This document shows, in pieces, positions 2,996-25,719 of a stretch of 34,936 bases of DNA. The notes beneath the pieces were generated by a model. The model searched no databases and was not told where the DNA came from. It was given only the letters and a program-made list of their open reading frames with translations. Every line of letters begins with the position of its first letter. Positions within the stretch are counted from its first letter, which is position 1. The position numbers and the translations under genes are program-made. This stretch comes from a virus: positions 1-34,936 of the IMG/VR virus record IMGVR_UViG_3300032285_000275; one strand, written 5' to 3'.

Positions 2996-3003
2996 ATTAA
3001 ATA
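2996..3003 (+). promoter_or_regulatory. Late-like box placed at a leaderless start
   Basis: ATTAAATA, followed by only 4 nt before ATG 3008. With T4 spacing the +1 would fall on or next to the A of the ATG, and no Shine-Dalgarno is present. The first bases differ from the consensus. Confidence 0.5.
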
Positions 3004-3007
3004 CTGT

Positions 3008-3466
3008 ATGGGAACAAGAATTAGATGCTACACATTGTTTGATATCACTAAAACAGATATTACGAGTCGTAGACCTCCGCTAGACATGACAAACAAAGAT
3101 GCGTCAGAGTGGGAACAAAAAAGAAACACACAATGTAACCTAGATACTATCATACAGGTTATATCACTACGGGCACAGCCAGAAAACATAAACATAACAG
3201 TATGTGAATCAGTTGATTTGATAGAATTTGACAACTTTGGATTCTTAATTGAGTCTGCTGAACCGTGTAACATGTGGCATTTTGATTTCTATATCAATCA
3301 TTCAGGTGTATTCATGGAAAACGAGAACGAGTTGGGTGCATTATATACGGATTGTTCGGGCGTGCCCATGATAAAAATACATGACCGACAAATTACATTA
3401 CCAGACTTCTTAGATACAACCCCGGAATTACGCAACATTTACTTTGAGGTGCTTTCATATGAATGA
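3008..3466 (+). CDS. Conserved hypothetical protein of T4-like phages
   Basis: A 153-aa soluble protein beginning MGTRIRCYTLFDITKT, with four scattered Cys and a Trp/Asp-rich second half. It resembles an unnamed protein I associate with T4-like phages; no catalytic motif is visible. ATG 3008 was chosen over the in-frame TTG at 2978 because 2978 lies inside the terminator hairpin of the preceding gene. There is no Shine-Dalgarno; a TTAAATA box ends only 4 nt before the ATG, so a leaderless late mRNA is likely. Its 3' end overlaps the next gene by 8 nt. Confidence 0.8.
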   Translation: MGTRIRCYTLFDITKTDITSRRPPLDMTNKDASEWEQKRNTQCNLDTIIQVISLRAQPENINITVCESVDLIEFDNFGFLIESAEPCNMWHFDFYINHSGVFMENENELGALYTDCSGVPMIKIHDRQITLPDFLDTTPELRNIYFEVLSYE

Positions 3467-3923
3467 ACAAAAACTATACAATTCTCTACACAAACTATTC
3501 AGTATTGAGAATCTAAACAAATTAAAAGATAAAGCAGTTTATAAAGACGGCAACTCATATAAGTTGTTTGAACAATACGAGATAATTGCTATTCCCACTG
3601 GATTTAAAATAATGAAATTGGGTACAGATACTTCAAACATATTCTCTTCCCTGCAATATGCAGTGACATGGGCAGTTTTGAATAAACGCAATCTAATCTA
3701 TGAAGAAAATCGTGTGCGTGACTTGGATACTGAATTAGCAAGCTTAGAAGTTATTATAAAATCCGCTGAAAATGCTAAGAAAAAAGCAAAATTAGACTTT
3801 TTAAGATACAATAGACTAGCTGAGGCCAGATACAAAAAACAAGCAATTCTAGAGGAATTAAATAGCTATATGATTCAAACTAAACGCTGGCAACTTAAGA
3901 AATTTAAGGAATCTTCTCTTTAA
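3459..3923 (+). CDS. Coiled-coil hypothetical protein
   Basis: A 154-aa basic protein. An N-terminal mixed domain (about 1-85) is followed by a long charged helix (about 85-150) with heptad-like spacing and many Lys/Glu/Ala, so probably a coiled coil. ATG 3459 was chosen because GAGGT at 3446-3450 sits 8 nt upstream; a TTG at 3444 is in frame but has no such site. The start lies inside the end of the upstream gene (TATGAATGA), so the two are probably translationally coupled. No function is recognisable. Confidence 0.8.
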   Translation: MNEQKLYNSLHKLFSIENLNKLKDKAVYKDGNSYKLFEQYEIIAIPTGFKIMKLGTDTSNIFSSLQYAVTWAVLNKRNLIYEENRVRDLDTELASLEVIIKSAENAKKKAKLDFLRYNRLAEARYKKQAILEELNSYMIQTKRWQLKKFKESSL

Positions 3924-3938
3924 TTTTATTTGAAGAAA

Positions 3939-3946
3939 GATAAATA
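3939..3946 (+). promoter_or_regulatory. T4-late-like promoter box
   Basis: GATAAATA, 24 nt before ATG 3971, with TTAGGAAT as ribosome site. A TAGG-AATA-CCTA mini-hairpin covers the ribosome site in the leader but is only 4 bp. Confidence 0.7.
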
Positions 3947-3970
3947 CATTATCGTACTTTAGGAATACCT

Positions 3971-4690
3971 ATGAAACTAACCGAATTTAACCGTAAACCA
4001 TCAATGATGGCTAAGAAAGCTTTAAGAGAGAATTTTAATACCTCTTTGAACTTTGACAAATTGTCAATGTCTGACACAAGAACCATGTTACGTAAAGTAA
4101 AGGGTCTAATCAGCGAAACTAGACAATCAAATGCTATTCATTCTAGCGAACAAAATCCAGCATACTTGAAACTAGTATTCATGGAACAAGCTTTAGCACA
4201 TCACTATGGTGAACTAAAAGCACAACCAATGTACAACAGTCGTATCGTTGTTGAGAACGAACAAGTTGAGAAATCACAAGTTGTTCTAGCAGTTAAAGAT
4301 ATGGTTGACAGCGTACAGAAAATGGTTGAAGAAGTTTCTGATATGTTAGTAAAAGAATTGCCAGCTGTTATTGATAGCGTTAACAGCGAAATTGGTACTA
4401 ACGAAGGTGAGCAATTCAGTTCACAAGCCAATGAAGCACTAACAACATTGCAAGCCGCATTGACACAATCTAAGACAAGTTTACAAGCCGCACTAGGTGT
4501 TGTAACAGGTCAAGGTGGTGGATTTGACGCAGGCATGGGCGGTCCAGAAATGGGCGGTGGTATGCCTGATATGGGTGGCGAAGAAATGGGCGGTGGTATG
4601 CCTGATATGGGTGGCGAAGAAATGGGTGCTGAGATGCCTGAAGAAGAACCAGAAGCGCCACCAACAAGCGTAGGCCGCGCAAAAAGATAA
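3971..4690 (+). CDS. Late protein with Met/Gly/Glu-rich repeat tail; possible head/scaffold component
   Basis: A 239-aa protein. Residues 1-175 are helical and Gln/Ser/Val-rich. The C-terminal 65 residues are low-complexity Gly, Met, Asp and Glu with a 12-residue unit, EMGGGMPDMGGE, repeated in tandem, then an acidic stretch and a short basic end (VGRAKR). A late box at 3939-3946 and an AGGAATACCT leader precede ATG 3971. The stop and the next start share one base (TAATG), so both are probably translated together. Helical content plus an acidic flexible tail would suit a prohead core protein, but I see no specific homology to gp22, gp67 or gp68. Confidence 0.8.
   Translation: MKLTEFNRKPSMMAKKALRENFNTSLNFDKLSMSDTRTMLRKVKGLISETRQSNAIHSSEQNPAYLKLVFMEQALAHHYGELKAQPMYNSRIVVENEQVEKSQVVLAVKDMVDSVQKMVEEVSDMLVKELPAVIDSVNSEIGTNEGEQFSSQANEALTTLQAALTQSKTSLQAALGVVTGQGGGFDAGMGGPEMGGGMPDMGGEEMGGGMPDMGGEEMGAEMPEEEPEAPPTSVGRAKR
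4547..4645 (+). repeat. 36-nt tandem repeat in coding sequence
   Basis: Two copies of a 12-codon unit (EMGGGMPDMGGE; 4547-4582 and 4583-4618) with a degenerate partial third. The copies are nearly identical, so copy number could change by slippage without breaking the frame. Confidence 0.85.
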
Positions 4691-5016
4691 TGCGTCTTTT
4701 TGAGTTTGATAACAACGATCCGTTGAGAGTGAAGTTGACTGCGGTAACAAGTCAACTTCAATCCGACCTTCAGAATGCAAACTCAGAAGATCCAATGAGT
4801 ACAGACGCATTTTTAAATCTATTACGTAAGAACGAAATTGTAATAGATAAAAGTGATATCTATGATATCATTAAAAAAGAACCACTAGTTCACTTTATCA
4901 AAGACATTGAGGATGATAAAGTTATATTCAGAGGTCAAGTGTTAGCAAAACAACCTATCGATCCTGACCAATCAGAGCAAATAGTTGCTCAAATGGCTAA
5001 AAAAGCAGCCAAATAG
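4690..5016 (+). CDS. Hypothetical protein coupled to upstream late gene
   Basis: A 108-aa acidic protein starting MRLFEFDNNDPLRVKL. Helices at about 10-30 and 40-65 are followed by a short strand-rich part (FIKDIEDDKVIFRG) and a basic C-terminus (MAKKAAK). The start overlaps the upstream stop by one base (TAATG), a classical termination-reinitiation arrangement, and no other ribosome site is needed. It ends with TAG just before the sigma70 promoter of the exonuclease gene. Function is unknown; pairing with the 3971 gene suggests the two products act together. Confidence 0.78.
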   Translation: MRLFEFDNNDPLRVKLTAVTSQLQSDLQNANSEDPMSTDAFLNLLRKNEIVIDKSDIYDIIKKEPLVHFIKDIEDDKVIFRGQVLAKQPIDPDQSEQIVAQMAKKAAK

Positions 5017-5018
5017 AA

Positions 5019-5047
5019 TTGACAATTGGACTATAATCAACTATAAT
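5019..5047 (+). promoter_or_regulatory. Perfect sigma70 promoter of the exonuclease gene
   Basis: TTGACA (5019-5024), 17-nt spacer, TATAAT (5042-5047). A second TATAAT at 5032-5037 is too close to the -35. The -10 ends 7 nt before ATG 5055, so +1 falls at the start codon. This predicts host-polymerase (early) expression from a leaderless RNA. Confidence 0.85.
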
Positions 5048-5054
5048 TGATTAT

Positions 5055-5741
5055 ATGTACAATCCTAATAAATTCAAATACGAAGCATTAAAACGCATAG
5101 ACACACCTGAAGGGCGCAGATACGCAACACCCGATGGTAACAAACTACCCTCAGTCACTACAATATTAGACGCTACTAAGTCAGAAGAATCTAAACAAGC
5201 ATTGGCTAATTGGCGTAAACGAGTTGGCGCTGTTCAAGCACAAGCAATCACAACAGAAGCCGCAGGTCGCGGTACACGTATGCACAAGTGGCTTGAAGAT
5301 TATATTAAGACAGGTGAGATAGGTACACCCGGAAGTAATCCATATTCAATACAAAGTCATGCAATGGCAACTAGCATCATTGCACAAGGACTATCTAAAT
5401 GTAATGAATACTGGGGTACAGAAGTTCCGCTTTACTTCCCTTCAGTTTATGCTGGTACAACAGACTTGTGCGGGGTGCATGATAATGCAGAAGCTATCAT
5501 GGATCATAAACAGACAAATAAACCTAAAAAACGTGAATGGATTGATGACTACTTTGTTCAGTTAGCTGCCTACGCTAATGCACATAACGAAGTGCATGGT
5601 ACAAAGATACGTAAAGGTGTCATTTTTATGTGTTCAGCTGCCAATGAATATCAAGAATTCATCATTGAGGGTGCTGAATTTGACAAGTACACAGACATGT
5701 GGTTCAAACGATGTGAGGGATTCTATCTGAAATACCTCTAG
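5055..5741 (+). CDS. PD-(D/E)XK exonuclease, MGME1/RecB-like
   Basis: A 228-aa nuclease of the RecB/Cas4/MGME1 superfamily, expected to degrade single-stranded DNA ends in replication, recombination or host-DNA breakdown. Visible landmarks: PSVTTILDAT (about 32-41), RGTRMHKWLEDY (72-83, H77), GTEVPLY (E123), GTTDLCG with metal-binding D137, the D150-H-K152 active-site pair followed by TNKPKK, and QLAAY (Q169, Y173) of motif QxxxY. Length and motif order fit MGME1-type phage enzymes. It lies among structural genes but has its own TTGACA-N17-TATAAT promoter whose +1 falls at or within a base or two of the ATG. There is no Shine-Dalgarno, so a leaderless transcript is likely. Family is clear; the exact substrate is inferred. 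Confidence 0.85.
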   Translation: MYNPNKFKYEALKRIDTPEGRRYATPDGNKLPSVTTILDATKSEESKQALANWRKRVGAVQAQAITTEAAGRGTRMHKWLEDYIKTGEIGTPGSNPYSIQSHAMATSIIAQGLSKCNEYWGTEVPLYFPSVYAGTTDLCGVHDNAEAIMDHKQTNKPKKREWIDDYFVQLAAYANAHNEVHGTKIRKGVIFMCSAANEYQEFIIEGAEFDKYTDMWFKRCEGFYLKYL

Positions 5742-5759
5742 TCCAATCTACTTTAGATT

Positions 5760-5767
5760 GATAAATA
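5760..5767 (+). promoter_or_regulatory. T4-late-like promoter box
   Basis: GATAAATA, 31 nt before ATG 5799. The predicted +1 is near 5773. A TATAAT at 5771-5776 lies just downstream and could act as a host -10, but no -35 is evident. Confidence 0.7.
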
Positions 5768-5800
5768 GTATATAATCTTTCCTTAAGAAAAATATACTAT
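5765..5800 (+). promoter_or_regulatory. 9-bp hairpin hiding the fibre-gene start codon
   Basis: ATAGTATAT (5765-5773) and ATATACTAT (5792-5800) are perfect inverted repeats, 18-nt loop. The 3' arm contains the A and T of ATG 5799; the 5' arm starts in the late box and ends at the predicted +1. Only read-through RNA would carry both arms. Confidence 0.6.
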
Positions 5801-8800
5801 GGCCATAATTCAGATTTCAAAAATTCAACACCGTACAGGGGCAAATGTAGATTTGCCTCAACTGTCTGAGGGCGAACTAGGCTTTGCCACAGACGAGCAA
5901 AAGCTGTATATTGGTAACGATCCACTGTTACATCCCCCTGCAAACAACAGTACGACTACCCAAGTTGAAATATTAACAGAAGTATCCACATTACAATACG
6001 CTAAACTAGAAGGTGGTGCTAATACTGCTCTTAACTTAGCAAACACTTATCCAGGACAAGTAATGGTTCTGGCAGCAGACGGAAACACTTGGGTCAATGC
6101 TGGTGGAAATGTGTTAGATGCAAGTAATACTACAATTATACCAGGATATGGTGTACATTTAGGTGATGCGGCTAATATCAAAGTAACCGGTGGTATCAAC
6201 GGATATGTGTTACAAACAGACGGTCAAGGTAATTTATCTTGGACAAGCGCTGGTATTATCCAATATCAAATCACTAATATATCAAAAGCAAATCCTGCAG
6301 TTGTCACAACTAGCGCCAATAATCAAATTACAACTGGTGTGCCTATTACTATTTCTGGTATTGGTGGAATGACACAAATCAGAACAGCAGGTGAAAGCGG
6401 TACTAACAAGTTTTATGCCCAGCGTATTGATAATACTAGTTTTTCTTTGTACAAAGATACTGCGTTTTCAATAGCAGTTGATAGTACAAGTTTTACTACT
6501 GCTACTTATGATGCTAACAGTTTAGTAACAGTTTCATTCTATAGTCAAGGTACAGGTAGTCCAGGTGGTTCAAACAATCAAATTCAATTGAATGACGGTA
6601 CAGGCGGCTTTGCTGGTAGTGCTAACTTAACATTCAGTAGAATCACAAATCAATTAACAATTGGTGGTAACTTAGTTGCTAACGTAGTAACTGCTAATAG
6701 CTTTAGAGGTCCTGTAACAGGTAGTATTGGTGCAACTACACCTAATACTGGTGCATTCACTAGTATCACTGCTACAACGACAGCCGCTATTACTGGTAAT
6801 GTAAATGCAGGAAATACAAACATCTCAGGTATTGCTAATATAGTTGGTAATTTAAACGCAGGTAATATAAGAACAGCAGGTACAGCCAATGTAGGTAACT
6901 TAAATATTGTTGCTAATGTAACTTCTAATTTAACACCAAATGCTAATGTAACTATTAACTTAGGATCAAGTTCGCAGAATTGGAAAGATGTATTTGTTGG
7001 TAATTCAATTTCGTTAAACGCACAATCTATTACATCAGATGGTACAACTGCAACTATTGCGGGTAATTTAAACGTTGGCAATGCTAATTTAGGTAATATT
7101 GCAACTGCTAATTATGTTACGGGTACATTAACAACAGGAGATCAACCTAATATTACTAATGTCGGTACATTAGTTGACTTAACCGTTAGAGGTCCAGTTG
7201 ATTTAGGTAATGTAGGTAATCTAACAATAGGTGGCATCACAGCAAATTATGTATTAACAGTTAAATCTGATGGTTCAGGTCTTAACTGGTTACCAACACA
7301 ACAAGTTATTACTAACCCCGGCGGTGTTGATACATATGTTCAATTTAATGACAATGGTGTATTTGGTGGTAATGCTAGATTAGCATTTAATAAAGTTTCA
7401 GGCTTGTTAACTACATTGTCAGTAGCAGGTGATGGTGCAAACTTAAGTAATTTAACTGGTGCAAACGTCACCGGAACTGTAGGTAATGCAACTAAAGCAG
7501 GTACTGTCACAACAGCCGCACAACCTAATATTACATCAGTTGGTACATTGACAAGCATTGCAGTTACGGGTAATGCAAACGTAGGTAATTTAGGTACTCC
7601 TGGATTAATAGTAGCAGCCGGTAACGTGATTGGTGCTAATTTAAATACAACAGGAGCACTAAGTGTTACAGGTAATGCAAACGTAGGTAACATAGGTGCA
7701 ACAGCCGGTGTATTTACAAGCAACGTAAGTGGATTAAACGTTAGTGTTTCTAATTTAACAACTACTAATACACTAACTGTTAACGCTACTGCTATAATAG
7801 GTACCATTAACGCAGGTAATATCAGTACTACTGGTAACATAAGTGCTGGGGCAAATCTATACGCAACAGGTAATCTAACTGTTACTGGTAATGCCGCAGT
7901 AGGTAACTTAAACGTAGGTGCTGTTGTAGCAGTTGGCGCAATTAGTACTACTGATAATTTAACAGTAACTGGTAATATAACATCTGGTAATATTTCTACT
8001 GGCAGAGGCACGTTTAGTGGTAACGTAAGCTCTGGTAACTTATCAACTTCTGGTAATTTAACTGTAGGTGCAAATACATCTGTATCTAACTTAGCAATCA
8101 CTGGTAATATTACTGGTGCGTTGTTGCCAAGCGCAAATGTAACATACAATTTAGGATCACCAACACAGCGTTGGAAAGATTTATATCTATCTGGTAGCAC
8201 AATTTATTTGGGTGCTGCCGGAACACTATCTACTGATGTAAATGGTGCATTATCTATCAGTGGTAATTTATCAACTACTGCAAATGTAATTTCAGGTAAC
8301 TCTATAACCGGTAATCTTTCAGCTACTGGTAATGCAGACGTAACCGGTAATGTAATAGCCGGCAATGTATACGCTAACAGTGGTACAGTTGGTGCATCAA
8401 AATTAGCAGGATCATTAACAACAGCGGCTCAACCTAATGTAACTAGTGTGGGTAGATTGACTGACTTAGCAGTTGGTAATTCTACTGTTTATTCTACTTT
8501 TGGTAATGGTACTATATCTGCAAATAGCGTTAGCGTTGCGGGTAATATCTACTTGACAACTACTACACCAATTAATATCAATGGTTCAGTTGGAGTTAAT
8601 GGACAAGTACTAAGCACAACAGGTACGGGTGTACAATGGATTACATTAAGTCCGAATAGTATTTTCAACGGTACAAGTAACGTAAGCGTATCATCAAGCG
8701 GTGGTAACGTTACGGTATCAGTAGGTGGAACATCTAACGTAGCAGTAGTATCATCAACTGGTGTAAATGTTGCCGGTACACTAAGTGCTACAAGTTTAAA

Positions 8801-9977
8801 ATTACCCGGTGGTACTGTAGGACAAGCGTTAATATCTGATGGTGCAGGCGGATTGATATTTGGTAGTGGAAAAGCATATGCTGTATCTACAATCAATAAC
8901 TTAGTAGCAGGTTCTGCATTAGTATTTGATGTAGACTATAGCAATGTAACTTATCCAGCAGGTGTATTTACATTACGTCAATTAGGTCCAGTATCGTTTA
9001 GTATGTCAGATACATGGTCTAGTGGTGGTACAAGCAAGAACGCATACACTAATGGTGTAGCAAGTATTGTAAACACACGTGATATCACACTTACATTGAC
9101 ATTAGCCAATGCTACATTTGCAGTTAATACTGCTACTGATTCTATTGTTGTCGGTAGTACAGTAATTTCTGGTGCTAATTTAGCAAGCTTGAATATTGCA
9201 ACTAACGCAGGCGGAACTTATTCTATTCCTGCTAGTTTGTTTGCGGCAAGCGCACAAACAGTAGCACCAAGTCCAGTAACTATCTCTGCAACATTGACTA
9301 CAAATCGTGGTCAGTTTAATACATCTGGTACTAATTTAACAAACAACCCATACTCAGCATTTAATATTAGCTTTAGTGGAAGTTGGACATCTTCTTCTGT
9401 TCCTTTCTGGAACGTTAATCAATCATTCAACTGGAATTCATCGTTGACTGGTACAGTTAACAGTGGTAATGTAAAATATACACAAGTAAGTAATCCTACA
9501 GTAACAGGTACATTATCTTCAGTTGGCGGAACATCAGGTACATCTGTATCACTAGACAGTTCAGTTAGCTATACAATTAGTACAACCGATTATGTTGGTA
9601 TTGGTGCAAACGTCACTGCTGGAACATCAACAGTGGCTACATCTACTACATTGAATGCCGCAACTAAATACTATCCTTTATTCTATAAGATTACTGGAAG
9701 CAGTGCTAATCCTAACTTCATCACAGGTGATTCATATTTAACAAAGGCTTATGCAGTAGGTGACGGGGCAAATACTTCAACTACCGCATCTAACTATTTG
9801 TGGCTAGCAGTTCCTGGAGTAAGCACATCACATACATTCCAACACGTTGACCAAGGATTTACTGTAGCTGATACACCTGATGCAACATATCTAAATCAAA
9901 CTATTGGTGGATATACATATCAAGTATATGGATTTACCAACTTCAGTGCCGCACTAAAAATATCAGTGACTACATAA
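5799..9977 (+). CDS. Giant repetitive tail-fibre/structural protein (1392 aa)
   Basis: Residues 1-50 carry a fibre N-terminal signature also seen in Mtd-type proteins (IQISKIQHRTGANV, then LSEGELGFATDEQKLYIGN). The body to about residue 1020 is built of beta-repeat modules rich in Asn, Gly, Thr, Ala and Val: TGNANVGNL-like units, TTAAQPNITSVGTL linkers, YVQFNDNGVFGGNARL-type modules and two RWKDLYLSGS-type motifs. The last ~370 residues are a non-repetitive Ser/Thr-rich beta region, probably a head or tip domain. Very low Lys/Glu/Cys content fits a fibrous trimer. No S74 chaperone is seen. A late box (5760-5767) overlaps a hairpin that would hide the ATG. Followed after 17 nt by the even larger 9995 gene with the same repeats. 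Confidence 0.85.
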   Translation: MAIIQISKIQHRTGANVDLPQLSEGELGFATDEQKLYIGNDPLLHPPANNSTTTQVEILTEVSTLQYAKLEGGANTALNLANTYPGQVMVLAADGNTWVNAGGNVLDASNTTIIPGYGVHLGDAANIKVTGGINGYVLQTDGQGNLSWTSAGIIQYQITNISKANPAVVTTSANNQITTGVPITISGIGGMTQIRTAGESGTNKFYAQRIDNTSFSLYKDTAFSIAVDSTSFTTATYDANSLVTVSFYSQGTGSPGGSNNQIQLNDGTGGFAGSANLTFSRITNQLTIGGNLVANVVTANSFRGPVTGSIGATTPNTGAFTSITATTTAAITGNVNAGNTNISGIANIVGNLNAGNIRTAGTANVGNLNIVANVTSNLTPNANVTINLGSSSQNWKDVFVGNSISLNAQSITSDGTTATIAGNLNVGNANLGNIATANYVTGTLTTGDQPNITNVGTLVDLTVRGPVDLGNVGNLTIGGITANYVLTVKSDGSGLNWLPTQQVITNPGGVDTYVQFNDNGVFGGNARLAFNKVSGLLTTLSVAGDGANLSNLTGANVTGTVGNATKAGTVTTAAQPNITSVGTLTSIAVTGNANVGNLGTPGLIVAAGNVIGANLNTTGALSVTGNANVGNIGATAGVFTSNVSGLNVSVSNLTTTNTLTVNATAIIGTINAGNISTTGNISAGANLYATGNLTVTGNAAVGNLNVGAVVAVGAISTTDNLTVTGNITSGNISTGRGTFSGNVSSGNLSTSGNLTVGANTSVSNLAITGNITGALLPSANVTYNLGSPTQRWKDLYLSGSTIYLGAAGTLSTDVNGALSISGNLSTTANVISGNSITGNLSATGNADVTGNVIAGNVYANSGTVGASKLAGSLTTAAQPNVTSVGRLTDLAVGNSTVYSTFGNGTISANSVSVAGNIYLTTTTPININGSVGVNGQVLSTTGTGVQWITLSPNSIFNGTSNVSVSSSGGNVTVSVGGTSNVAVVSSTGVNVAGTLSATSLKLPGGTVGQALISDGAGGLIFGSGKAYAVSTINNLVAGSALVFDVDYSNVTYPAGVFTLRQLGPVSFSMSDTWSSGGTSKNAYTNGVASIVNTRDITLTLTLANATFAVNTATDSIVVGSTVISGANLASLNIATNAGGTYSIPASLFAASAQTVAPSPVTISATLTTNRGQFNTSGTNLTNNPYSAFNISFSGSWTSSSVPFWNVNQSFNWNSSLTGTVNSGNVKYTQVSNPTVTGTLSSVGGTSGTSVSLDSSVSYTISTTDYVGIGANVTAGTSTVATSTTLNAATKYYPLFYKITGSSANPNFITGDSYLTKAYAVGDGANTSTTASNYLWLAVPGVSTSHTFQHVDQGFTVADTPDATYLNQTIGGYTYQVYGFTNFSAALKISVTT

Positions 9978-9994
9978 TAACAGGAAAATAAAAA

Positions 9995-12900
9995 ATGGCA
10001 ACATTCACTTGGGGTACCCCAACACAGATTAAGAATATGTTAGACCCTTCTAGTAGTAGTGATGCTACTACTAAAAGTTATGTAGATGGAAAGATTGCTG
10101 GTAGTAACACACAAGTTCAATTTAATAATGCAGGTAACTTTGGAGCTAGCTCCAATTTTACTTTTAACAGTACCACAAGTTTACTAACGTTAGTAGGTAA
10201 TATTGCAGTAACTAATGCTAATTTAGGTAATGCTGTAACTGCTAATTTCTTTATTGGTAGTGGTAATAATTTAAGTAATATCCAAGGTAGTAATGTATCG
10301 GGTGAAGTTGCATATGCCGCAACTGCTAACAGCATTGCTGGTGCTAACGTGTCAGGTGCAGTTGCGTTTGCTACGACAGCCAATGCAGTAGCCGGCGCTA
10401 ATGTATCAGGTGCAGTTACATTTGCTACAACAGCTAATACAGTAGCCGGTGCTAATGTAAGTGGACAAGTAAATTTTGCCGCAACTGCTAATGCTGTAGC
10501 AGGTGCTAATGTAAGCGGACAAGTAAATTATGCGGCAACTGCTAATGCTGTAGCTGGTGCTAATGTAAGCGGACAAGTAAATTTTGCTAACGTAGCAAAC
10601 AATGTAGCCGGCGCTAATGTTAGTGGACAAGTAAATTTTGCCGCAACTGCTAATAGCGTAGCTGGTGCCAACGTATCAGGTCAAGTAGGTAATGCACTAG
10701 TAGCCGGAACAGTTTATACAGCATCACAACCAAACATTACAAGTGTAGGTACACTAACAAGTTTAGCGGTTACTGCCGTAGTAAATCCAAGTCTTGGTAA
10801 TGCAGTTACTGCTAACTTCTTTATTGGTAGTGGCAACAACCTAAGCAATATTCAAGGTGCAAACGTTAATGGTCAAGTATTATATGCCGCAACTGCTAAT
10901 GCTGTAGCGGGTGCTAATGTAAGCGGAGCAGTAGCATATGCAACAGTTGCTAATGCAGTAGCTGGCGCCAATGTGTCAGGTGCAGTTGCGTTTGCTACAA
11001 CAGCCAATGCTGTAGCGGGTGCTAATGTCAGTGGTCAAGTTACATTTGCCGCAACTGCTAATGCTGTAGCGGGTGCTAATGTAAGCGGAGCAGTCGCTTA
11101 TGCTACAACTGCTAATGCTGTAGCGGGTGCTAATGTCAGTGGTCAAGTTGCTAATGCATTAGTAGCAGGTACAGTTTACACTGCGGCTCAGCCAAATATT
11201 ACATCAGTAGGTACATTAAGTTCATTAGCAGTAAGTGCCAATGTAACAGCAGGTAATGTATATGCTAATTCAGGAACAATTGGTGCTAGTTTATTAACTG
11301 GTACATTAACAACAGCGGCTCAACCAAATATCACTTCGGTTGGTACATTGCGTGATACTATATTAGGGTCAAGCAATTCATTATCGGGTGGTAACTTAGT
11401 AAGTGCAACATACCTTGGTGGTACATTAACAACAGCCACACAACCTAATATCACTTCTGTTGGAACATTGAGTTCATTAGCAGTAACCGCTAATGTAATA
11501 GCCGGAAACGTATATGCTAATGGTGGGACAATTGGTGCTACATTAGTAAATGGTACATTAACAACAGTCGCACAACCCAATATCACTTCAGTTGGTACAT
11601 TGGGTAATCTAAGTGTAACATCTAATATCACTGCCGGAAACATTGAATCTACTGGCGCACTTAAGGGCGGCGCACTAACTGTACAAGATACAATCATTAA
11701 TGGTAACTTAACTGTCACTGGTACTACTGCTTATGCTGACGTAGCAACATTAAACGTTAAAGACCCTGTTATTGAACAAGGTGGCAATCCAAACGGTGTT
11801 GCATTATCAAGCAATGACGGTAAAGACCGTGGTCAATTACTACACTATTACACAACACAACCCGTTGATGCTTTCATGGGTTGGAAGAACAACAATGCTG
11901 AATTTACATTTGCTAGCGAAGCATCAATTACAACCAACAATGTAACAATTGCTAAATTGGGTAATGTTCGTGCTGGAAATGCTATATTCAGTAATTTAGT
12001 AACTGCTAATTATTTTACCGGTACACTAACAACAGCGGCTCAACCTAATATTACAAGTACAGGAACATTAACAAGTTTAGCTGTTTCGGGTGATGAAACT
12101 GTAGGTGGAAACTTAGGCGTTACTGGAAACATTTCAGTTACTGGTTATATCTCTACAAACGCTAATCTTTCAGTCGCTACTAATATAACTGCTATCAATG
12201 TTTATGCTAACTCAGGAACTATAAAAGCCACAAATATAACAGGAACATTGACTACTAACGCACAACCTAATGTTACATCAGTTGGTACATTGGATAGTCT
12301 AAGTGTTACTGGTAACATTTCAACTTCTGCTAATTTATCAGTTACATCTAACATTACATCTGGTAATATATATGCTAATGCAGGAACTATTAAAGCCTCA
12401 TTATTAACTGGTACAGTAACAACAAACGCACAGCCTAACATTACAAGTGTTGGTACATTATCTGAAATTAATATCACTGGTAATACTCTTACAGGTAATC
12501 TTACAGTAAACAATACATTAACGTTAAACACATTAACTGTAACAGATATTTCTATTAATGGTAATTTAGCAGTTAAAGATTCATTAGTTGAACTTGGTGG
12601 AAATCCTAACGGCACACCTCTTGCATTAAACGATGCAAAAGATAGAGGTACATTGTTACATTACTATACAACAACACCGGTTGATGCATTCATGGGTTGG
12701 AAAACCAGCTCAAGTGAGTTTGTATTAGCAAGCAGTGCTACAACATTAAACAATGCAATCACCGTTGTTACTTATGGTAATTTACGTGCAGGTAATGCAG
12801 TATTCAGTAACTTGATAACTGCAAATTATTTCACAGGTACGTTGACAACAGGTCAACAACCAAACATTACACAAACTGGTACATTGGGAACATTGAATGT

Positions 12901-17209: not shown

Positions 17210-17212
17210 TAA

Positions 17213-17220: not shown

Positions 17221-17247
17221 ATAGTGTTCGCTCTTAAATGAGAGTTT

Positions 17248-17266: not shown

Positions 17267-17303
17267 AGGCCTAGAACGCCAACTAACTTAAAGGAAAAAT
17301 AAA

Positions 17304-18521
17304 ATGGCAGCAAGATTAAACAAGAAATTCTTCGGTAACCGTAACATTGGTACCGGCGGTGACCAAACAGGATCACTATCAAACAGTCAAAACTACGGTG
17401 ATGACCGCATTGGTGGTGAAGGTGTAGCAAGTGTCACAATCAATACAGAAGGTACATATACTTCTGCATTACCTACAGTATCATTCTCAACACCCGATCT
17501 TCCAGGTGGTGTTCGTGCAACAGGTACAGTTCATGGTCATGCATTAACAGCAGTTGCAACAGCGGCTGGTAGTGGATACAACTTAGCTAATGTGTTGACA
17601 TTACCATCAGGTAGTGGTATAATTACACCTGCAACATTTACTGTTACTGCGGTTACAGTAGTTAGTATCACGTTAAACAACGGTGGTACAGCAAACGATG
17701 TGGGTGATGAATTTACATTTGCAGTATCAGGATTTGCAACTCCGTTGAGAGTTCGTGTTACAGCCGCAACTACCGGAACTGCTACAGCAGTTTCTATTGT
17801 CAACGGCGGTGTATGGACAAGTGGTGCATTACCATCTAACACAATTGGCATGACTCGCACACAAGTTGCAGCCGGTCAAGACTATAACGGTCAAAACTTG
17901 CAAGTTAATATCACTGGATGGGGTGTTGCTACTGTTGCGGTTGCCCAACAAGGTGACTATACCAGTATCTCTAGCGGTGCAAAAGCAACAACAGTTACAC
18001 CATCAGGTGGTTTAGGTGCTACATTGACTGTCACTTATGGTGTTAGCGGTGTTGTAGTTGATGAAAAAGGTTCCGGATATACAACAGTTGCAGATGCGGC
18101 TCCTACATTCAGTTCTGGTTCTGCAACAGCTACTTCAGTATTAACAACAGACAACGGTATTCCTTACAGTGCAGGTAATCAAGAGAATGCGTTGATTCCA
18201 TATGCATATATCGGTGGAAGTCGTAAGATTGTTGATATTATCGGTCAAAAAGGTGCACGCCGTTATAAAGTAACAGACGGTACTAACGTAGCATTATGCA
18301 ACTTAAAAACATCAGCCGCGGCAAATGCTGCTGGCGAAATGGACTTGACTGCATATGACAGTGCTGGTGGCGAGTATTGGGTTAAGAAAATCAATAACCG
18401 TCGTTGCACAGTTGTTCGTAAAGCATCAGGTGGCGGTACACAATTCGCTACAGATTCTAGTGTTCCATGGACATTAGATGCGGCAACACTTAACGTCAGT
18501 GTTAAAATCAATAACGCTTAA
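17304..18521 (+). CDS. Virion structural protein of aquatic T4-like phages
   Basis: A 405-aa protein. The N-terminus (MAARLNKKFFGNRNIGT) and C-terminal ~120 residues (PYAYIGGSRKIVDIIG, then RRYKVTD, GEMDLTAYDS and GTQFATDSSVPWTL) match a small virion protein I associate with aquatic T4-like phages. Between them sits a ~240-residue Thr/Gly/Val-rich insertion with repeats such as AGSGYNLANV, NNGGTANDVGDEF and KGSGYTTVADA, which look like short fibre-type units. It has a late box (17213-17220), an unusually long ~80-nt leader with a GC-rich hairpin, AAAGGAAAAAT before the ATG, and a terminator after the stop. All fit high late expression. Exact place in the particle is unknown. Confidence 0.82.
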   Translation: MAARLNKKFFGNRNIGTGGDQTGSLSNSQNYGDDRIGGEGVASVTINTEGTYTSALPTVSFSTPDLPGGVRATGTVHGHALTAVATAAGSGYNLANVLTLPSGSGIITPATFTVTAVTVVSITLNNGGTANDVGDEFTFAVSGFATPLRVRVTAATTGTATAVSIVNGGVWTSGALPSNTIGMTRTQVAAGQDYNGQNLQVNITGWGVATVAVAQQGDYTSISSGAKATTVTPSGGLGATLTVTYGVSGVVVDEKGSGYTTVADAAPTFSSGSATATSVLTTDNGIPYSAGNQENALIPYAYIGGSRKIVDIIGQKGARRYKVTDGTNVALCNLKTSAAANAAGEMDLTAYDSAGGEYWVKKINNRRCTVVRKASGGGTQFATDSSVPWTLDAATLNVSVKINNA

Positions 18522-18543
18522 TTTTTAAGCAACCAATAAAAAA

Positions 18544-18565
18544 GCCGCACTATGCGGCTTTTTTT
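18544..18565. terminator. Bidirectional intrinsic terminator
   Basis: GCCGCA-CTA-TGCGGC stem-loop with six A on the left and seven T on the right, so it works in both directions. It separates the plus-strand 17304 gene from the convergent Nudix gene, whose stop codon is the loop. Confidence 0.9.
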
Positions 18566-18975
18566 GTGAGACTTTCTAGTTTATCTTTTACTATATCAAA
18601 GTTAACTGTATTGAACAATCCGCTATGTAATGGTTTTGGATAATGATGTACGTCTACCCAACAATATCCCACATGTTCTTCATTTAATACAGGGATAAAT
18701 TCATCATCTATCTTACAAAAGAATGTATGATATGTGAATACGTTGTTTACAAATTTTTGAATGGGTATGAGTTTGGCATCTTTAGGAAAATAATCTATTT
18801 CTTCAATACATTCACGTTCTAGACCTTGAAACAATGTTTCTTCATCTTCAAGTTTACCACCAGGAATACCCCAAATGTTTACACCCCTTTCTTCATTGCG
18901 AAGTAGGAATAAAAATCTATTGGTATTATTTGCGTAGAAGAATACGCCTGCTGATATCTTTTCTTTTTTACTCAT
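18550..18975 (-). CDS. Nudix (MutT-type) hydrolase
   Basis: A 141-aa enzyme that hydrolyses a nucleoside diphosphate linked to another group. The Nudix box is clear: G40-x5-E46-x7-R54-E55-C56-I57-E58-E59, with the usual Gly two residues after EE replaced by Asp61. RFLFLLRNEERGVNIWGIPGG precedes it in the usual place (WGIPGGK). The substrate cannot be read; damaged dNTPs, NADH or capped RNA are all possible. It is the last gene of the minus-strand block after gp15. The ATG lacks a Shine-Dalgarno, lies 5 nt after a GATAAATT box, and sits in the 3' arm of a 7-bp inverted repeat. Its TAG stop lies in the loop of the shared terminator hairpin. Confidence 0.9.
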   Translation of the reverse strand: MSKKEKISAGVFFYANNTNRFLFLLRNEERGVNIWGIPGGKLEDEETLFQGLERECIEEIDYFPKDAKLIPIQKFVNNVFTYHTFFCKIDDEFIPVLNEEHVGYCWVDVHHYPKPLHSGLFNTVNFDIVKDKLESLTKKAA

Positions 18976-18997
18976 ACATTAATTTATCTTGTATGAG
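18971..18997 (-). promoter_or_regulatory. 7-bp hairpin hiding the Nudix start codon
   Basis: On the minus strand CTCATAC (18997-18991) pairs with GTATGAG (18977-18971), 13-nt loop. The 3' arm contains the ATG; the loop holds the late box. The 5' arm is upstream of the predicted +1. Confidence 0.55.
18981..18988 (-). promoter_or_regulatory. Late-like box at the Nudix start
   Basis: GATAAATT on the minus strand, 5 nt before the Nudix ATG. The predicted +1 is the A of the ATG. The last base differs from the consensus. Confidence 0.55.
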
Positions 18998-19005
18998 TTG
19001 TTCCA

Positions 19006-20376
19006 TTAAATTACTACAGAGAAGTCGCCGGCTGCATACCAGCCTTCGTATGATTTAACCCAAACACCATCTGTATATCTGTATTGTACATTGGTTGTTA
19101 AATTAGTAACAAACTGTACGTTTGCCTCTGCTTGACTGTTAAAACTTACATTCCATTTTGCACCGTCATATTCAATAATGTCATTGGCATTCGCAATAAC
19201 TTCACCCCAAGCAGGAGAAAAATCTGAATTAACTGCACCAATATTATCAATAATCAAATAACGTTGTCCGGCAGATGCAGTTGGTAAGCCAGCATCAGGT
19301 CCTTTATGTTGTGGATTGATGATACTGTTAACTGAACCAAGAGTATTCTGTGGTAATGTGTCAGTATCAATATTATAAGTTAGTAATCTATCATCAATAG
19401 GATTTATACTGATTGTACCTACAATGTCTGTATTCATATATGGGTTCTGTAACCAAATCTGACTGATACCTGATTTAACTTCTCCATATACGTTTAAGAA
19501 CGCACTCCATTTGATATCAGTAATAGGATTTTGTTCTGGGAAATTGATATCACTGTTGGGTGGAGTAAAAGGTTCATTTTCGGGTAATATTTGTAATGTG
19601 TTATTGATTAAGAATATCTTATAACCATAAGGTGTGATTTTTTGTCGTGTGCCCAATAACAAATGGTCATCTTGCATGTCTGTAATTGCGTGACCTTTAA
19701 AAATGCTTGCAATAACTTTATGAATAACACCCATTTTCTTAGCCTTAGCACTAGCACTAATCCATATAGGCATATAGAATTTCCAACTCATAATGTCAAT
19801 AGGATTACCTGACCCCATTGGAATTTGTCTACTACTAAATGTCAACCCGTCTTGATATACAACTGACAAACTTGTCCAGTCAATAAAATTATCAGTGCTT
19901 TGAATCTCCATACTTGGATTAAACAATATACCAAGTTGTTCAATCAACTCTAATTTTTGTTGATAGTTTGTTGTCCAAAAGTCTACATTGATACGTAATG
20001 TATATGGAACAGGCATTAATCGTTCAACAGTGAATGCATCACCTTGTACATTTTCAAATGTTTGAGTATCCTGATTAAATGCTCTACGGCGAACAGTCAT
20101 CTTATCAACGAATGTTGGATCCTGTGTACGTCTTTGGTCGTACTCTAATCCAGTTACATAATATGTAATCAACGGTGCACTAGGAAGACTACTAGGGCTG
20201 TTGTTTGCTTGTATGACAGAAGCTTGGCGACTAGAATCACCGTATTGAATGGGTACACGAACAATAATATCATTACCTGCAGGGTCTTTGCCCTTAGTAA
20301 CATTCCAGTCACTAAAGATTCTAGCAAACTGAATTAAAAATCTGCGTATTTGATTGTCGTAAAAGTAATTTGCCAT
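19006..20376 (-). CDS. 15: Tail sheath stabiliser/completion protein, gp15-like
   Basis: In T4, gp15 forms the terminator ring that caps the sheath and tube and joins the head. The N-terminus MANYFYDNQIRRFLIQFARI corresponds to the T4 gp15 N-terminal pattern GYFYNSSFRRY. GDAFTVERLMPVPYTL, NVDFWTTNYQQKLELIEQLG and NPSMEIQSTDNFIDWTSL are typical of the long marine-type gp15. At 456 aa it is much longer than T4 gp15 (272 aa); the extra C-terminal half ends in a Trp/Tyr-rich segment (YRYTDGVWVKSYEGWY) like those in gp14 and the sheath here. AAGGATATCA precedes the ATG. It follows gp14 by 8 nt on the same strand. Confidence 0.85.
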   Translation of the reverse strand: MANYFYDNQIRRFLIQFARIFSDWNVTKGKDPAGNDIIVRVPIQYGDSSRQASVIQANNSPSSLPSAPLITYYVTGLEYDQRRTQDPTFVDKMTVRRRAFNQDTQTFENVQGDAFTVERLMPVPYTLRINVDFWTTNYQQKLELIEQLGILFNPSMEIQSTDNFIDWTSLSVVYQDGLTFSSRQIPMGSGNPIDIMSWKFYMPIWISASAKAKKMGVIHKVIASIFKGHAITDMQDDHLLLGTRQKITPYGYKIFLINNTLQILPENEPFTPPNSDINFPEQNPITDIKWSAFLNVYGEVKSGISQIWLQNPYMNTDIVGTISINPIDDRLLTYNIDTDTLPQNTLGSVNSIINPQHKGPDAGLPTASAGQRYLIIDNIGAVNSDFSPAWGEVIANANDIIEYDGAKWNVSFNSQAEANVQFVTNLTTNVQYRYTDGVWVKSYEGWYAAGDFSVVI

Positions 20377-20384
20377 TGATATCC

Positions 20385-22025
20385 TTAATCAGGCGTAATT
20401 TTAAGTATTGATGATAGACCTTGCAATTCATTGATAGCACTTCCGTCAACTAATGTTGTTTGATTGTTGTTATTTATGAAGCTATTCAATAGGCTCTGAT
20501 TATCTGTGCTATTGAAGCCTGTATCTGTTTGTACTTTCTCAGATATACCAATCCATAAACTACCATCCCAACGGAATAGTTTCTGAGGTGCATAGTCTAA
20601 GCGCAAGAAATAATCTCCTACTTTTGGATTATCAGGGAAGGTAATTCCTGATCCAAAAGGTATTCCGTTTGGTGCTGTTCCGTCTCCTACCATATAACCA
20701 CTTGTATATCCTAATCCTCTTGGTGAAGCCTCTCCCACAAACGTGAATCTTGGATCCTCGTCTGCTCTAAAGTCCATGATGTTAACATCAACAATTGTTC
20801 CGGTAAAGCTAGGTAACGATGGGTCTTGGTCAGCAGTTGCATATGTGTTATCAGTTGTACCATAAGGTGCTGTAATATCACCTAATGCTTTTGCAGTCAA
20901 CACAATAGTCGGTTCTGTACTACCGCTACCGCTTGCTGTTTTCTCTGGCTCTATTTTTGCTAACTCTAAACTTAATTTAACAAAAGCTTTTAGCAGGTCG
21001 GATGCTTTAGCCTGTGAATTTATATCTTTAAGTGCAGAGATTGTAATTCTAATAACAGGGGAATTATTATAATCTGCTAAAGTAACTACACCTGGTCTTG
21101 GTGCAATTTTAGGAACTGTAACATTCTTTGGAGTTGCCGGTTTGTTGTTAGTATCGGTTGGTGCAACATATAATTGACTACGATTATACCCTGAGCTAGG
21201 TAATTGACGTTTAGCCTCATCAATCATTGCTTGATTGACTTTAATATTTTGATTGTAACGACCTAATATGTCTTTCAAATTGTCTGCCGCATCTAATTCC
21301 CAATACGTTGTATCAGTGCAGGGTGTACCAATTGGTACATTTGTTTTTGCAATGTAGTTTTTATTACCATAACTAACTACATACCCCGGAGGATAAGTAG
21401 CAGTCTTATCCCAGTCACCTAAATAAGTGTCTGTGTTTGTAGGTTGCTTTAATATATTACTAAACTCCTGACTATCTACTAACGGCTCACACTTGACACG
21501 CCATAGATGAGGGTACCAAGTAGCACTAAAACCTTCACTTGCGAAGTTAGCATCAGTTATTTGATAATATCTACGCAATGATGTTGGTATCAATTCATTT
21601 AATGGATGATAGTCTGTTAGATGCGGTAATTCAAACACATCGCCAACCATCAACTTGCGACCTATCAATTCAATCATCCTATTGTAATGTACTGTTACAA
21701 AGATAATGTCATTGTTCAAAAACAATCCAAACTGACTTAAGTCAAAGTCTAAGTTTGCAACATTATAATGACCACGCAATCTATAGATATTGGTATCATA
21801 CTTGCGGTCACGATTTTCTAAGAACAACAAGTCTTGTATCTTAGTCGGGTCTGCACTTGTGTATTGTGGTTGAGATAAATCTCTGCTAGGACCTGAATCC
21901 ATTACACCTAAGTATTTGTGTATATACAAATCGGTTCCTCCAACGTCAAACATTTCTGATATATTCTTATCAAAAAAGCGATAATCGTTGGATTTTTGAC
22001 TACGGTAAAGGGATAGTTTCGGCAT
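20385..22025 (-). CDS. 14: Neck protein, gp14-like
   Basis: A component of the neck that closes the packaged head before tail joining. IYIHKYLG-type text (about 34-40), PTKIQDLLFLENRDRKYD (60-77), YNVANLDFDLSQFGLFLNND (87-106) and GRKLMVGDVFELPHLTDYHP (122-141) are patterns I associate with the gp14 of aquatic T4-like phages. At 546 aa it is about twice T4 gp14 (256 aa). Inserted parts include a chitin-binding-like segment (about 202-245; W205, Y211, G214, Y219, Y224, W242) and a GDYFLRLDY..LFRWDGSLWI segment near 475-500. No Shine-Dalgarno is seen; a minus-strand GATAAATA box ends 8 nt before the ATG. Assignment to gp14 rests on remembered family patterns and its pairing with gp15 and gp13. 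Confidence 0.78.
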   Translation of the reverse strand: MPKLSLYRSQKSNDYRFFDKNISEMFDVGGTDLYIHKYLGVMDSGPSRDLSQPQYTSADPTKIQDLLFLENRDRKYDTNIYRLRGHYNVANLDFDLSQFGLFLNNDIIFVTVHYNRMIELIGRKLMVGDVFELPHLTDYHPLNELIPTSLRRYYQITDANFASEGFSATWYPHLWRVKCEPLVDSQEFSNILKQPTNTDTYLGDWDKTATYPPGYVVSYGNKNYIAKTNVPIGTPCTDTTYWELDAADNLKDILGRYNQNIKVNQAMIDEAKRQLPSSGYNRSQLYVAPTDTNNKPATPKNVTVPKIAPRPGVVTLADYNNSPVIRITISALKDINSQAKASDLLKAFVKLSLELAKIEPEKTASGSGSTEPTIVLTAKALGDITAPYGTTDNTYATADQDPSLPSFTGTIVDVNIMDFRADEDPRFTFVGEASPRGLGYTSGYMVGDGTAPNGIPFGSGITFPDNPKVGDYFLRLDYAPQKLFRWDGSLWIGISEKVQTDTGFNSTDNQSLLNSFINNNNQTTLVDGSAINELQGLSSILKITPD

Positions 22026-22033: not shown

Positions 22034-22041
22034 TATTTATC
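22034..22041 (-). promoter_or_regulatory. T4-late-like promoter box for gp14-gp15
   Basis: GATAAATA on the minus strand, 8 nt before the gp14 ATG; the predicted leader is about 3 nt with no Shine-Dalgarno. Confidence 0.7.
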
Positions 22042-23927: not shown

Positions 23928-23930
23928 AAT

Positions 23931-24695
23931 ATGGCAACAGCACTTTCCCTACATGAATTAAAAGAAGGATTATTTAAAAGTCTAGAATTGCGTCTTGGCG
24001 GCGGAATGATAGATTTAGAACTTGATCCTGAGCACTACGAAGCGGCATACAAGTATGCATTACAAGTATATCGCCAACGTGCTCAAAATTCTACAATAGA
24101 AACCTATACATTAATGACGTTGACAGCACATGTCAACACTTATACTCTTCCCGACGAGTATGTTGGAGTCAGGCAAGTCTTTCGTAGAACAATTGGTTTA
24201 GAGACAGGTCCTAGCTCTAGCAGTTTTGACCCGTTCAGTAGTGCTATTCTTAATACATATTTGCTTAACTATAACTTTGCTGGTGGTTTAGCAACTTATG
24301 ATTTCTATGCAGGATATATTGAGTTAGCCGCACGTATGTTCGGTGGATATGTGGTATATACATTTAACCCTGTGACAAAACAAATCAAATTAGTACGTGA
24401 TGTTAAAGCTACCGGTGAACAGATATTGATTTGGGCTGATATGCAACGACCCGAAGCTGAATTATTACAGGATCCTGGCTCTGGAGTTTGGATAGGTGAC
24501 TTTACATTAGCTACATTAAAATTAGCATTAGGTGAGGCACGTGAAAAGTTTGCTAGTTTAGCAGGTCCAGGTGGCGGCACTACATTAAATGGAACTGCAC
24601 TTAAATCTGAGGGAACTGCATTGCAGACACAACTCATTGACGAATTGAAACGATATGTTGACCATAGTCAACCATTGACATGGATTCAAGGTTAA
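23931..24695 (+). CDS. 13: Neck protein, gp13-like
   Basis: T4 gp13 forms a neck ring with gp14 after DNA packaging. This 254-aa product (T4: 309 aa) carries patterns I associate with gp13: an N-terminal helix pair (LHELKEGLFKSLELRLG, then DLELDPEHYEAAYKYALQVY), TYTLPDEYVGVRQVFR, and a C-terminal DFTLATLKLALGEAREKFA helix. A GATAAATA box lies inside a 12-bp inverted repeat just upstream. The Shine-Dalgarno AGGT (23919-23922) is in the 3' arm, so long read-through transcripts should not be translated well. Pairing with gp14 and gp15 across the divergent block supports the call. Confidence 0.82.
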   Translation: MATALSLHELKEGLFKSLELRLGGGMIDLELDPEHYEAAYKYALQVYRQRAQNSTIETYTLMTLTAHVNTYTLPDEYVGVRQVFRRTIGLETGPSSSSFDPFSSAILNTYLLNYNFAGGLATYDFYAGYIELAARMFGGYVVYTFNPVTKQIKLVRDVKATGEQILIWADMQRPEAELLQDPGSGVWIGDFTLATLKLALGEAREKFASLAGPGGGTTLNGTALKSEGTALQTQLIDELKRYVDHSQPLTWIQG

Positions 24696-24703
24696 CCTAA
24701 ATA
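24675..24703 (+). promoter_or_regulatory. Possible dual promoter of gp1
   Basis: TTGACA (24675-24680) lies exactly 17 nt before TAAATA (24698-24703). The latter is part of a CCTAAATA late-like box but is a poor sigma70 -10. It could serve host and late polymerase, giving early and late gp1 transcripts. Confidence 0.4.
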
Positions 24704-24752
24704 CTAGCATATGTCATCTCAAAGTAATACAATCAGTACTACAGGAGAACGT

Positions 24753-25415
24753 ATGATTATAGGAGTCACAGGCTTAATCGGAAGCGGCAAAGACACAATT
24801 GCCGATTATCTAGTAACAAACCACAAATTTAAACGCATTAGTTTTGCATCCAGTCTAAAAGATGCAGTGTCAAGTGTTTTTGGTTGGGACCGAGAAATGC
24901 TTGAAGGTACAACAAAGAGCAGCCGCAAATGGCGAGAACAAGTTGACCCTTGGTGGAGTGTCCGACTAGGCATTCCCGAACTTACACCACGCTGGATATT
25001 ACAGCAATGGGGCACAGAAGTATGTCGTGCTAACTTCCATGATGATATTTGGGTAGCAAGTGTAGAAAACAAACTACGTCAGACTAAAGACGATATTGTA
25101 ATCACTGACTGTAGATTCCCCAATGAAGTCAATGCTATCAAAAATGCAGGTGGTATTACTCTACGAGCAAATAGAGGTCCTGAACCTGAATGGTATGATG
25201 CGGCAAAAGCATACAATCTAGGACCAAATGGTAATAGTTTATGGTCACTGAGCAAATCTAAGTTAGATAAAGCCAAGATTCATGCAAGTGAGTACAGTAG
25301 TGTTGGGCTAAATTACGATTACCAGATTGATAATAACGGTTCTATTGATGATTTACACACTAGAATCAGTCAACTTCTAAGTCACCACGACGCCAAGGAA
25401 CGTCTTTCCGCTTAA
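24753..25415 (+). CDS. 1: Deoxynucleoside monophosphate kinase, T4 gp1 family
   Basis: Phosphorylates dNMPs for phage DNA synthesis in the cytoplasm. The start MIIGVTGLIGSGKDTIADYL holds the P-loop (G-x4-GKD) as in T4 gp1. RISFASSLKDAV, LQQWGTEVCR and VITDCRFPNEVNAI are typical of the family. The 220-aa length fits. ATG 24753 was chosen because AGGAG lies 5 nt upstream and the P-loop then sits where T4 has it. An in-frame ATG at 24711 would add 14 residues without a Shine-Dalgarno, but lies 7 nt after a TAAATA box and could be a leaderless start. The last 50 nt overlap the antisense HNH-type gene. Confidence 0.9.
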   Translation: MIIGVTGLIGSGKDTIADYLVTNHKFKRISFASSLKDAVSSVFGWDREMLEGTTKSSRKWREQVDPWWSVRLGIPELTPRWILQQWGTEVCRANFHDDIWVASVENKLRQTKDDIVITDCRFPNEVNAIKNAGGITLRANRGPEPEWYDAAKAYNLGPNGNSLWSLSKSKLDKAKIHASEYSSVGLNYDYQIDNNGSIDDLHTRISQLLSHHDAKERLSA

Positions 25416-25707
25416 CTACTTCAATACAGTTAAGACATACAGTGCGTAAATTATTAAATGTAGTATGCTCTAAGTTTCCATCTATGTGAAACACTGTAGT
25501 TTGACTGGGATATAAACTTCTAAAGCCACATAAATCACATGTGGCTTTTTTCTTGTATCCCGCTTTTTGCCAACTAGGTTCTCTTGGCTTAAGCTTATTC
25601 TTCTTACGACCACATTCATCACACATGCTACGATAATGTGTTACTCCGTCACGTTTATAATTTACGGCAGTATTATTCTTTCCGCATGTTTTACATATAG
25701 GTCTCAT
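25366..25707 (-). CDS. HNH-type zinc-ribbon endonuclease-like protein
   Basis: A 113-aa basic protein with four Cys pairs (C5/C8, C29/C32, C57/C60, C91/C94) and an HNH-like core: H74-I-D-G-N78, then NNLRTVCLNC. This combines two zinc ribbons with an HNH/endonuclease VII-like fold; similar small proteins occur in T4-like phages. It may nick or resolve DNA during packaging or recombination, or only bind it. It is convergent with gp1 and overlaps its 3' end by 50 nt. A minus-strand GCTAAATA box ends 4 nt before the ATG and no Shine-Dalgarno exists, so the mRNA is probably leaderless. Confidence 0.85.
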   Translation of the reverse strand: MRPICKTCGKNNTAVNYKRDGVTHYRSMCDECGRKKNKLKPREPSWQKAGYKKKATCDLCGFRSLYPSQTTVFHIDGNLEHTTFNNLRTVCLNCIEVVKRKDVPWRRGDLEVD

Positions 25708-25711
25708 CAGT

Positions 25712-25719
25712 TATTTAGC
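25712..25719 (-). promoter_or_regulatory. Late-like box at the HNH-gene start
   Basis: GCTAAATA on the minus strand, 4 nt before the ATG; predicted +1 is within a base of the start codon and no Shine-Dalgarno exists. Confidence 0.5.

Follow-up and report, generated by a model that had tools for sequence, protein, structure and literature searches.

Predicted leaderless late mRNAs in uncultured relatives of phage T4

The best-known leaderless mRNAs of phages are isolated examples, lambda cI among them. In phage T4, late promoters (gp55/gp33/gp45) carry TATAAATA, and this late box occupies positions -13 to -6 (PMC1524935). In Escherichia coli, a 5'-terminal AUG suffices for binding of the 70S ribosome and for initiation, with a strong preference for AUG over GUG, UUG, and CUG; a 5' phosphate, which primary transcripts possess, is required (PMC4965119, PMC9031893). 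Here, we describe the late genes of the IMG/VR record IMGVR_UViG_3300032285_000275, analyzed over its whole length of 34,936 bases (hereafter, the window), together with those of its relatives. The TAAATA core of the late box precedes tail tube, neck, fibre, and other genes, and its position relative to the ATG is bimodal. We consider it likely that the genes with the shorter distance are expressed as a class of leaderless late mRNAs, made from a promoter of the T4 gp55 type and read from a 5' AUG, beside a leadered class that carries a Shine-Dalgarno (SD) sequence.

Distance between the late box and the start codon

The gap between TAAATA and an ATG opening at least 70 codons was surveyed in 252 relative loci (2.39 Mb), which include many orthologs of the query genes. 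No gap of 3 nucleotides (nt) was found, followed by 143 cases at 4 nt, 82 at 5, and 5 at 6, with low counts through 15 nt and a second hump at 16–22 nt that reached its maximum of 90 at 19 nt. An SD match of at least 4 nt was present in 70% of the gap 16–30 class vs 4.6% of the gap 4–5 class. Within the window, the genes of the leadered class show gaps of 18, 18, 19, 19, 21, 24, 31, 42, 52, and 83 nt, mostly with an SD. The original prediction, made from the window alone, had divided the late genes into a group with almost no leader and no SD and a group with gaps of 18 nt or more, most with an SD; this division is borne out and extends far beyond the window.

As the selection of the loci itself relied on two of the genes under study, separate counts were also made for each family and for individual genomes. 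Among box-linked cases, the short class takes in 63 of 64 in the family of gene 3008 (genes are denoted by the position of their start codon in the window) and 93 of 98 in that of gene 25707; 28 of 55 in the 32011 family and 17 of 42 in the 31202 family are at gap 4–5, as are 8 of 67 in the 22025 family, with 9 more at 6–8, so that the short class spans the 3008, 25707, 32011-type, 31202-type, and 22025-type families. By genome, the 171 kb relative G003 has 21 genes at gaps of at most 8 nt, 2 at 9–13, and 22 at 14–30 (18 of the 22 with an SD), and the 264 kb relative G001 has 24, 5, and 29, respectively (21 of the 29 with an SD); about one third of the box-linked genes are short-gapped in the two larger relatives. 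Compared with the mean for other permutations of the hexamer, genes at gap 4–5 are in excess in the window (2 vs 0.08), G003 (16 vs 0.46), and G001 (14 vs 1.62); the jumbo phage Paride has 1 (vs 1.62) and the T4 late region none. Across whole records, TAAATANNNNATG occurs 53 times in the relatives G001–G005 vs 20 times for the reversed pattern, and 21 vs 71 times in nine cultured phages (T4, KVP40, S-PM2, P-SSM2, Aeh1, Paride, Atu_ph07, Phosso, and SCTP-2); for the pattern with 5-nt spacing, the contrast is weaker (55 vs 32 and 78 vs 59, respectively).

These counts bear on the most trivial explanation, namely, that TAAATA falls near an ATG through AT-rich composition or a wrong choice of start codon. 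Such an error does account for one of the starts first proposed, 24711+ (see below), but neither unrelated control hexamers nor the permutations yield a peak at 4–5 nt (ATAAAT and TATAAA peak nearby solely through overlap with the box), and conservation across orthologs as distant as 46% identity excludes chance for genes 3008 and 25707. Spurious spacing is thus refuted for the main families, and we regard it as exceedingly improbable for the class.

The identity of the start codon is less telling. Among NTG codons at gap 4–5 that open reading frames of at least 100 codons, 246 of 266 are ATG (GTG, 6; TTG, 10; CTG, 4), in line with what a need for a 5' AUG would predict (PMC9031893), but this is weak support for leaderless mRNA because the leadered class is likewise mostly ATG (at gap 17–22: ATG, 294; GTG, 22; TTG, 25; CTG, 7). 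Two further measures were rejected: a purine preference at the transcription start of the leadered class, considered as independent evidence of the start, dissolved into A/T richness at positions 5–6 after the box (A, 0.47; T, about 0.42) that is not A-specific, and the weaker 5' structure of leaderless genes (mean folding energy -2.0 vs -2.4 kcal/mol) was small and driven by composition.

Short-gap starts in the window

The two strongest cases are genes 3008 and 25707, both at gap 4. The features at the first are as follows.

2962..2989, + strand: intrinsic terminator of the preceding gene (ACCCAAG-atttatt-CTTGGGT and a T-run, recognized from sequence), ending about 8 nt before the late box
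2998..3003, + strand: late box TAAATA of gene 3008, 4 nt from the ATG at 3008
3008..3466, + strand: predicted leaderless late gene, 152 amino acids (aa), without a PHROG or Pfam match

The start context, TAAATActgtATG, lies directly 3' of the terminator. In 65 distinct orthologs (46–100% aa identity), the gap is 4 nt in 42, 5 in 21, and 6 in 2; conservation of the protein begins at its N-terminus (IRCYTLFDIT), which fixes the start, and box and ATG stay in register. A hairpin with a U-run precedes the box in 57 of the 65, with stems that differ yet still pair (CCCAAG/CTTGGG, CCCGAG/CTCGGG, and CCCCTAA/TTAGGGG). Since the terminator limits read-through, transcription from the box probably accounts for all of the gene 3008 mRNA, as judged from this arrangement.

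Gene 25707 is encoded on the opposite strand.

25712..25717, - strand: late box TAAATA, 4 nt from the ATG at 25707
25366..25707, - strand: predicted leaderless late gene, 113 aa, with a double CxxC, HNH-like (Pfam HNH, E=0.0044, below the curated cut-off)

Its start context is TAAATAactgATG. Of 102 distinct orthologs (61–100% identity), 100 have TAAATA, 4–5 nt, and ATG, and the other 2 have TAAGTA at the same spacing; in five of the 100, automatic scoring gave gap 1, but the examples inspected begin ATGATG, and their second ATG is at gap 4. The bases between box and ATG vary (ctgt, gtgt, tagt, gatg) and their number alone is held. Some orthologs are extended at the N-terminus (MLNQRPIC...), and in these the box is displaced upstream by as much as the ATG. 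Between the divergent genes 25707- and 25827+ lies a palindrome, ACCTTCGAAGGT (25726-25737), which occurs once per genome, at the same place, in G001 and G003, accompanies most gene 25707 orthologs, and is absent from Paride; it may be part of a + strand terminator.

Two further starts on the - strand belong to the short class with less certainty.

22034..22039, - strand: late box TAAATA with GA before it, 8 nt from the ATG at 22025
20385..22025, - strand: virion structural protein, 546 aa (phrog_11591, E=5.9e-81), near-leaderless with a predicted leader of 2–3 nt
18981..18986, - strand: variant late box TAAATT (GATAAATT) of the NUDIX gene, 5 nt from the ATG at 18975
18550..18975, - strand: NUDIX hydrolase, 141 aa (phrog_1198, E=5e-22; Pfam NUDIX, E=9e-14), candidate leaderless gene

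Gene 22025- (GATAAATActagtaatATG, gap 8) has no alternative in-frame start upstream and is a plausible near-leaderless start; its orthologs show gaps of either 4–8 or 16–35 nt and so are not consistently short. No TAAATA precedes 18975-, where the sequence is GATAAATTaatgtATG. Given that GATAAAT[T/C] stands about 5 nt before the ATG in most of a dozen NUDIX orthologs and that one ortholog locus (L011) has the full TAAATA, 4 nt, and ATG, this gene was probably rightly counted in the class.

The fifth start that had been proposed, 24711+, does not hold.

24698..24703, + strand: TAAATA, probably not a late promoter, within TAACCTAAA, the tail of the preceding gene
24743..24749, + strand: SD AGGAGAA of the dNMP kinase gene, whose in-frame start at 24753 matches Pfam DNMK

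The context of 24711+ is TAAATActagcatATG, and the in-frame ATG at 24753 follows 42 nt downstream, behind AGGAGAA. Relatives keep the start at 24753 and its SD; several close relatives have TAAATG in place of the supposed box, which lies in TAACCTAAA; and more distant relatives carry TTGTCA and TAATATAAT where the long form of the gene would begin, such that its ATGTCA aligns with the TTGTCA -35 element of a promoter of the sigma70 type. In the relatives, the region corresponding to 24704-24753 thus holds a sigma70-like -35/-10 promoter and an SD, an arrangement that suggests early or middle expression of dNMP kinase amid the late genes. Of the five starts, therefore, 3008 and 25707 stand very firmly, 22025 and the variant-box start 18975 stand with the qualifications given, and 24711 falls, the true start being 24753.

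With these loci in view, another possibility can be weighed: the short-gap boxes could be promoters while functional mRNA comes mainly from upstream, through early promoters or read-through, the leaderless form being minor. The position of 18975-, 30 nt downstream of a sheath-stabilizer-like gene on the same strand, fits this possibility, as does the dNMP kinase gene, formerly counted in the class, for which relatives have a separate sigma70-like promoter and an SD. It is difficult to reconcile, however, with the terminator directly in front of most gene 3008 orthologs, with the divergent orientation of 25707- and 22025- relative to the next gene and the lack of a same-strand gene close upstream of either, and with the failure to keep an SD before short-gap ATGs, which translation of read-through mRNA would need. 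We consider a mainly upstream origin of the mRNA quite unlikely.

Leadered genes and the proposed mechanism

The leadered design is exemplified by the tail tube gene.

29408..29413, + strand: late box in GATAAATA, 19 nt from the tail tube ATG at 29433, with AAGGAG in the leader

In 84 of 87 distinct orthologs of this gene the gap is 16–23 nt, and in 79 GA stands before the box; in the family of gene 32528, all 49 orthologs have gaps of 17–27 nt. The GA (GATAAATA) is favoured in both these leadered families and mostly not in the 3008 and 25707 families, and T4 favours TA, but the difference between leadered and leaderless genes, striking in these families, is not significant within single genomes (p 0.12–0.19). 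Named short-gap genes in the window and G003 encode HNH-like, NUDIX, DnaJ-domain, Rieske-domain, phosphoesterase, and peptidase proteins, another HNH protein, and two virion structural proteins, and the leadered genes include tail tube, neck, and fibre-type genes, which suggests that SD leaders serve the high-copy structural genes, many lower-copy genes being leaderless. The leader of gene 32011 (31987-32013) folds into a small hairpin, CTGCT-atatgga-AGCAG, whose loop carries GGA just before the ATG. Its relatives either keep the hairpin with changed stems and the GGA in the loop or have the leaderless TAAATActtttATG instead; judged from these sequences, some families, such as that of 32011, switch between the leaderless and leadered designs.

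In the mechanism that we propose, a late sigma factor of the gp55 type would recognise TAAATA, and RNA synthesis would start about 5–6 nt downstream of it. One class of late genes would have the ATG exactly at the RNA start, so that the mRNA begins with AUG (a leader of 0, at most 1–3 nt) and is translated through recognition of the 5'-terminal AUG, most likely by 70S ribosomes, with no need of an SD; in the other, the ATG would lie at least 16 nt downstream, with the SD built into the leader. The 5' end is inferred here from T4 geometry, and that the box is used during infection, and how ribosomes bind, are likewise predictions. On T4 numbering (box at -13 to -6), the ATG would coincide with +1 at gap 5 and lie one base before it at gap 4. 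The sharp edges of the peak at 4–5 nt are consistent with selection that keeps the ATG in register with the RNA start, and the second hump with the room taken by an SD. Homologs of gp55 are encoded by G001 (E=2.6e-6) and by Paride (6e-5).

Several points weigh against this mechanism. In strict T4 numbering, gap 4 places the A of the ATG at -1, so that RNA synthesis would have to begin one base earlier than it does in T4. In a close ortholog of gene 22025 (L004:6001), CTG replaces the ATG, through either a sequencing error or a non-AUG start, and 18975- may simply be read together with the gene upstream. In G003, the search for gp55 gave no homolog, and the window itself is fragmentary. Finally, a host search by scanning genome contigs found no relative.

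A variant that overlaps the proposed mechanism, and departs from it in leader length alone, puts the RNA start a few bases off the assumed site, giving near-leaderless mRNAs with leaders of 1–6 nt. Promoters often shift their start by 1–2 nt to a purine, and cases at gaps of 8 and 7 exist (22025-, G001, and G003); the abrupt limit of the gap distribution, with nothing at 3 nt and few cases at 6, suggests instead a register with a fixed start. We regard the variant as possible, although on the unlikely side.

The original prediction had further supposed that leaderless translation might need altered ribosomes or initiation factors. On such a view, the phage would modify them to give leaderless late mRNAs an advantage at the late stage of infection. 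Phage-encoded bS21 homologs are indeed present (G001:C1:256387-256536 and G003:C1:58374-58526). However, bS21 is also found in Paride, which is without the class, and in Atu_ph07, which has no excess of gap-4 sites, and IF3, found only in Atu_ph07, was not found in G001–G005; with these genes unlinked to the short-gap class, altered ribosomes are not supported. Nor are they needed, given that E. coli 70S ribosomes, without any modification, start on 5'-terminal AUGs and translate leaderless mRNA (PMC4965119, PMC9031893), and we judge such modification very unlikely. An extension of the proposed mechanism, in which one sigma factor serves two parallel late regulons, leadered and leaderless, whose balance is shifted during infection by the state of the ribosomes (70S availability, phage bS21, or factor changes), appears unlikely to us. 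The leaderless reading itself is strongly supported by comparative sequence analysis as a class, with start 24711 removed from it and 22025 retained as an inconsistent member.

Relatives and comparison with known systems

The window, a fragment like other IMG/VR contigs, encodes T4-like tail tube, sheath, neck, dNMP kinase, sheath stabilizer, and NUDIX proteins (genes were called by a simple open reading frame rule). Positions 5799-17209 encode two very long fibre-like proteins (1392 and 2404 aa) with degenerate repeats of the GNANVGN type. A DNA search of positions 1-20000 against cultured phages gave no match, and no homolog of gene 3008 was found in cultured phage records; close relatives of the window are abundant among uncultured viral contigs. 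A protein search matched the 546-aa structural protein at 37–44% identity to jumbo phages such as Paride, PA5oct, Atu_ph07, and Phosso. A search of open-access papers found none describing leaderless late genes in T4-like phages. If the predicted class is real, a conserved, genome-wide set of leaderless genes under one promoter motif in common uncultured phages would provide a natural test bed for the competition of leaderless mRNAs for ribosomes late in infection. As a practical matter, the box-to-ATG spacing can be used to fix start codons that are miscalled by gene callers.

With T4, the window and its relatives share TAAATA before late genes, leadered genes with an SD, and, in G001, a gp55 homolog. 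T4 differs in that none of 15 genes in its late region (70–119 kb) has a gap of 8 nt or less and its whole genome lacks TAAATANNNNATG. Among the cultured jumbo relatives, Paride and PA5oct (Pseudomonas) and Atu_ph07 (Agrobacterium) share the 546-aa structural protein homolog, and Paride also shares the gene order with sheath-type and NUDIX genes, but Paride shows no excess of gap-4/5 genes and Atu_ph07 no excess of TAAATANNNNATG (2 vs 17 for the control). Not found in the cultured T4-like phages checked, the short-gap class is kept across very diverged uncultured T4 relatives. The E. coli 5'-uAUG mRNAs have in common with it a 5'-terminal AUG that can recruit 70S ribosomes, but they also carry a leader and an SD for the main gene (PMC4965119), whereas here the 5' AUG would be the start of the gene itself. 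The leaderless mRNAs of lambda cI and transposon tetR have their start codon at or within 1–3 nt of the 5' end, as predicted here, and likewise prefer ATG and lack an SD; each, however, represents a single repressor gene, in contrast to the whole class of lytic late genes, served by a phage-specific late promoter, that is predicted in these phages.

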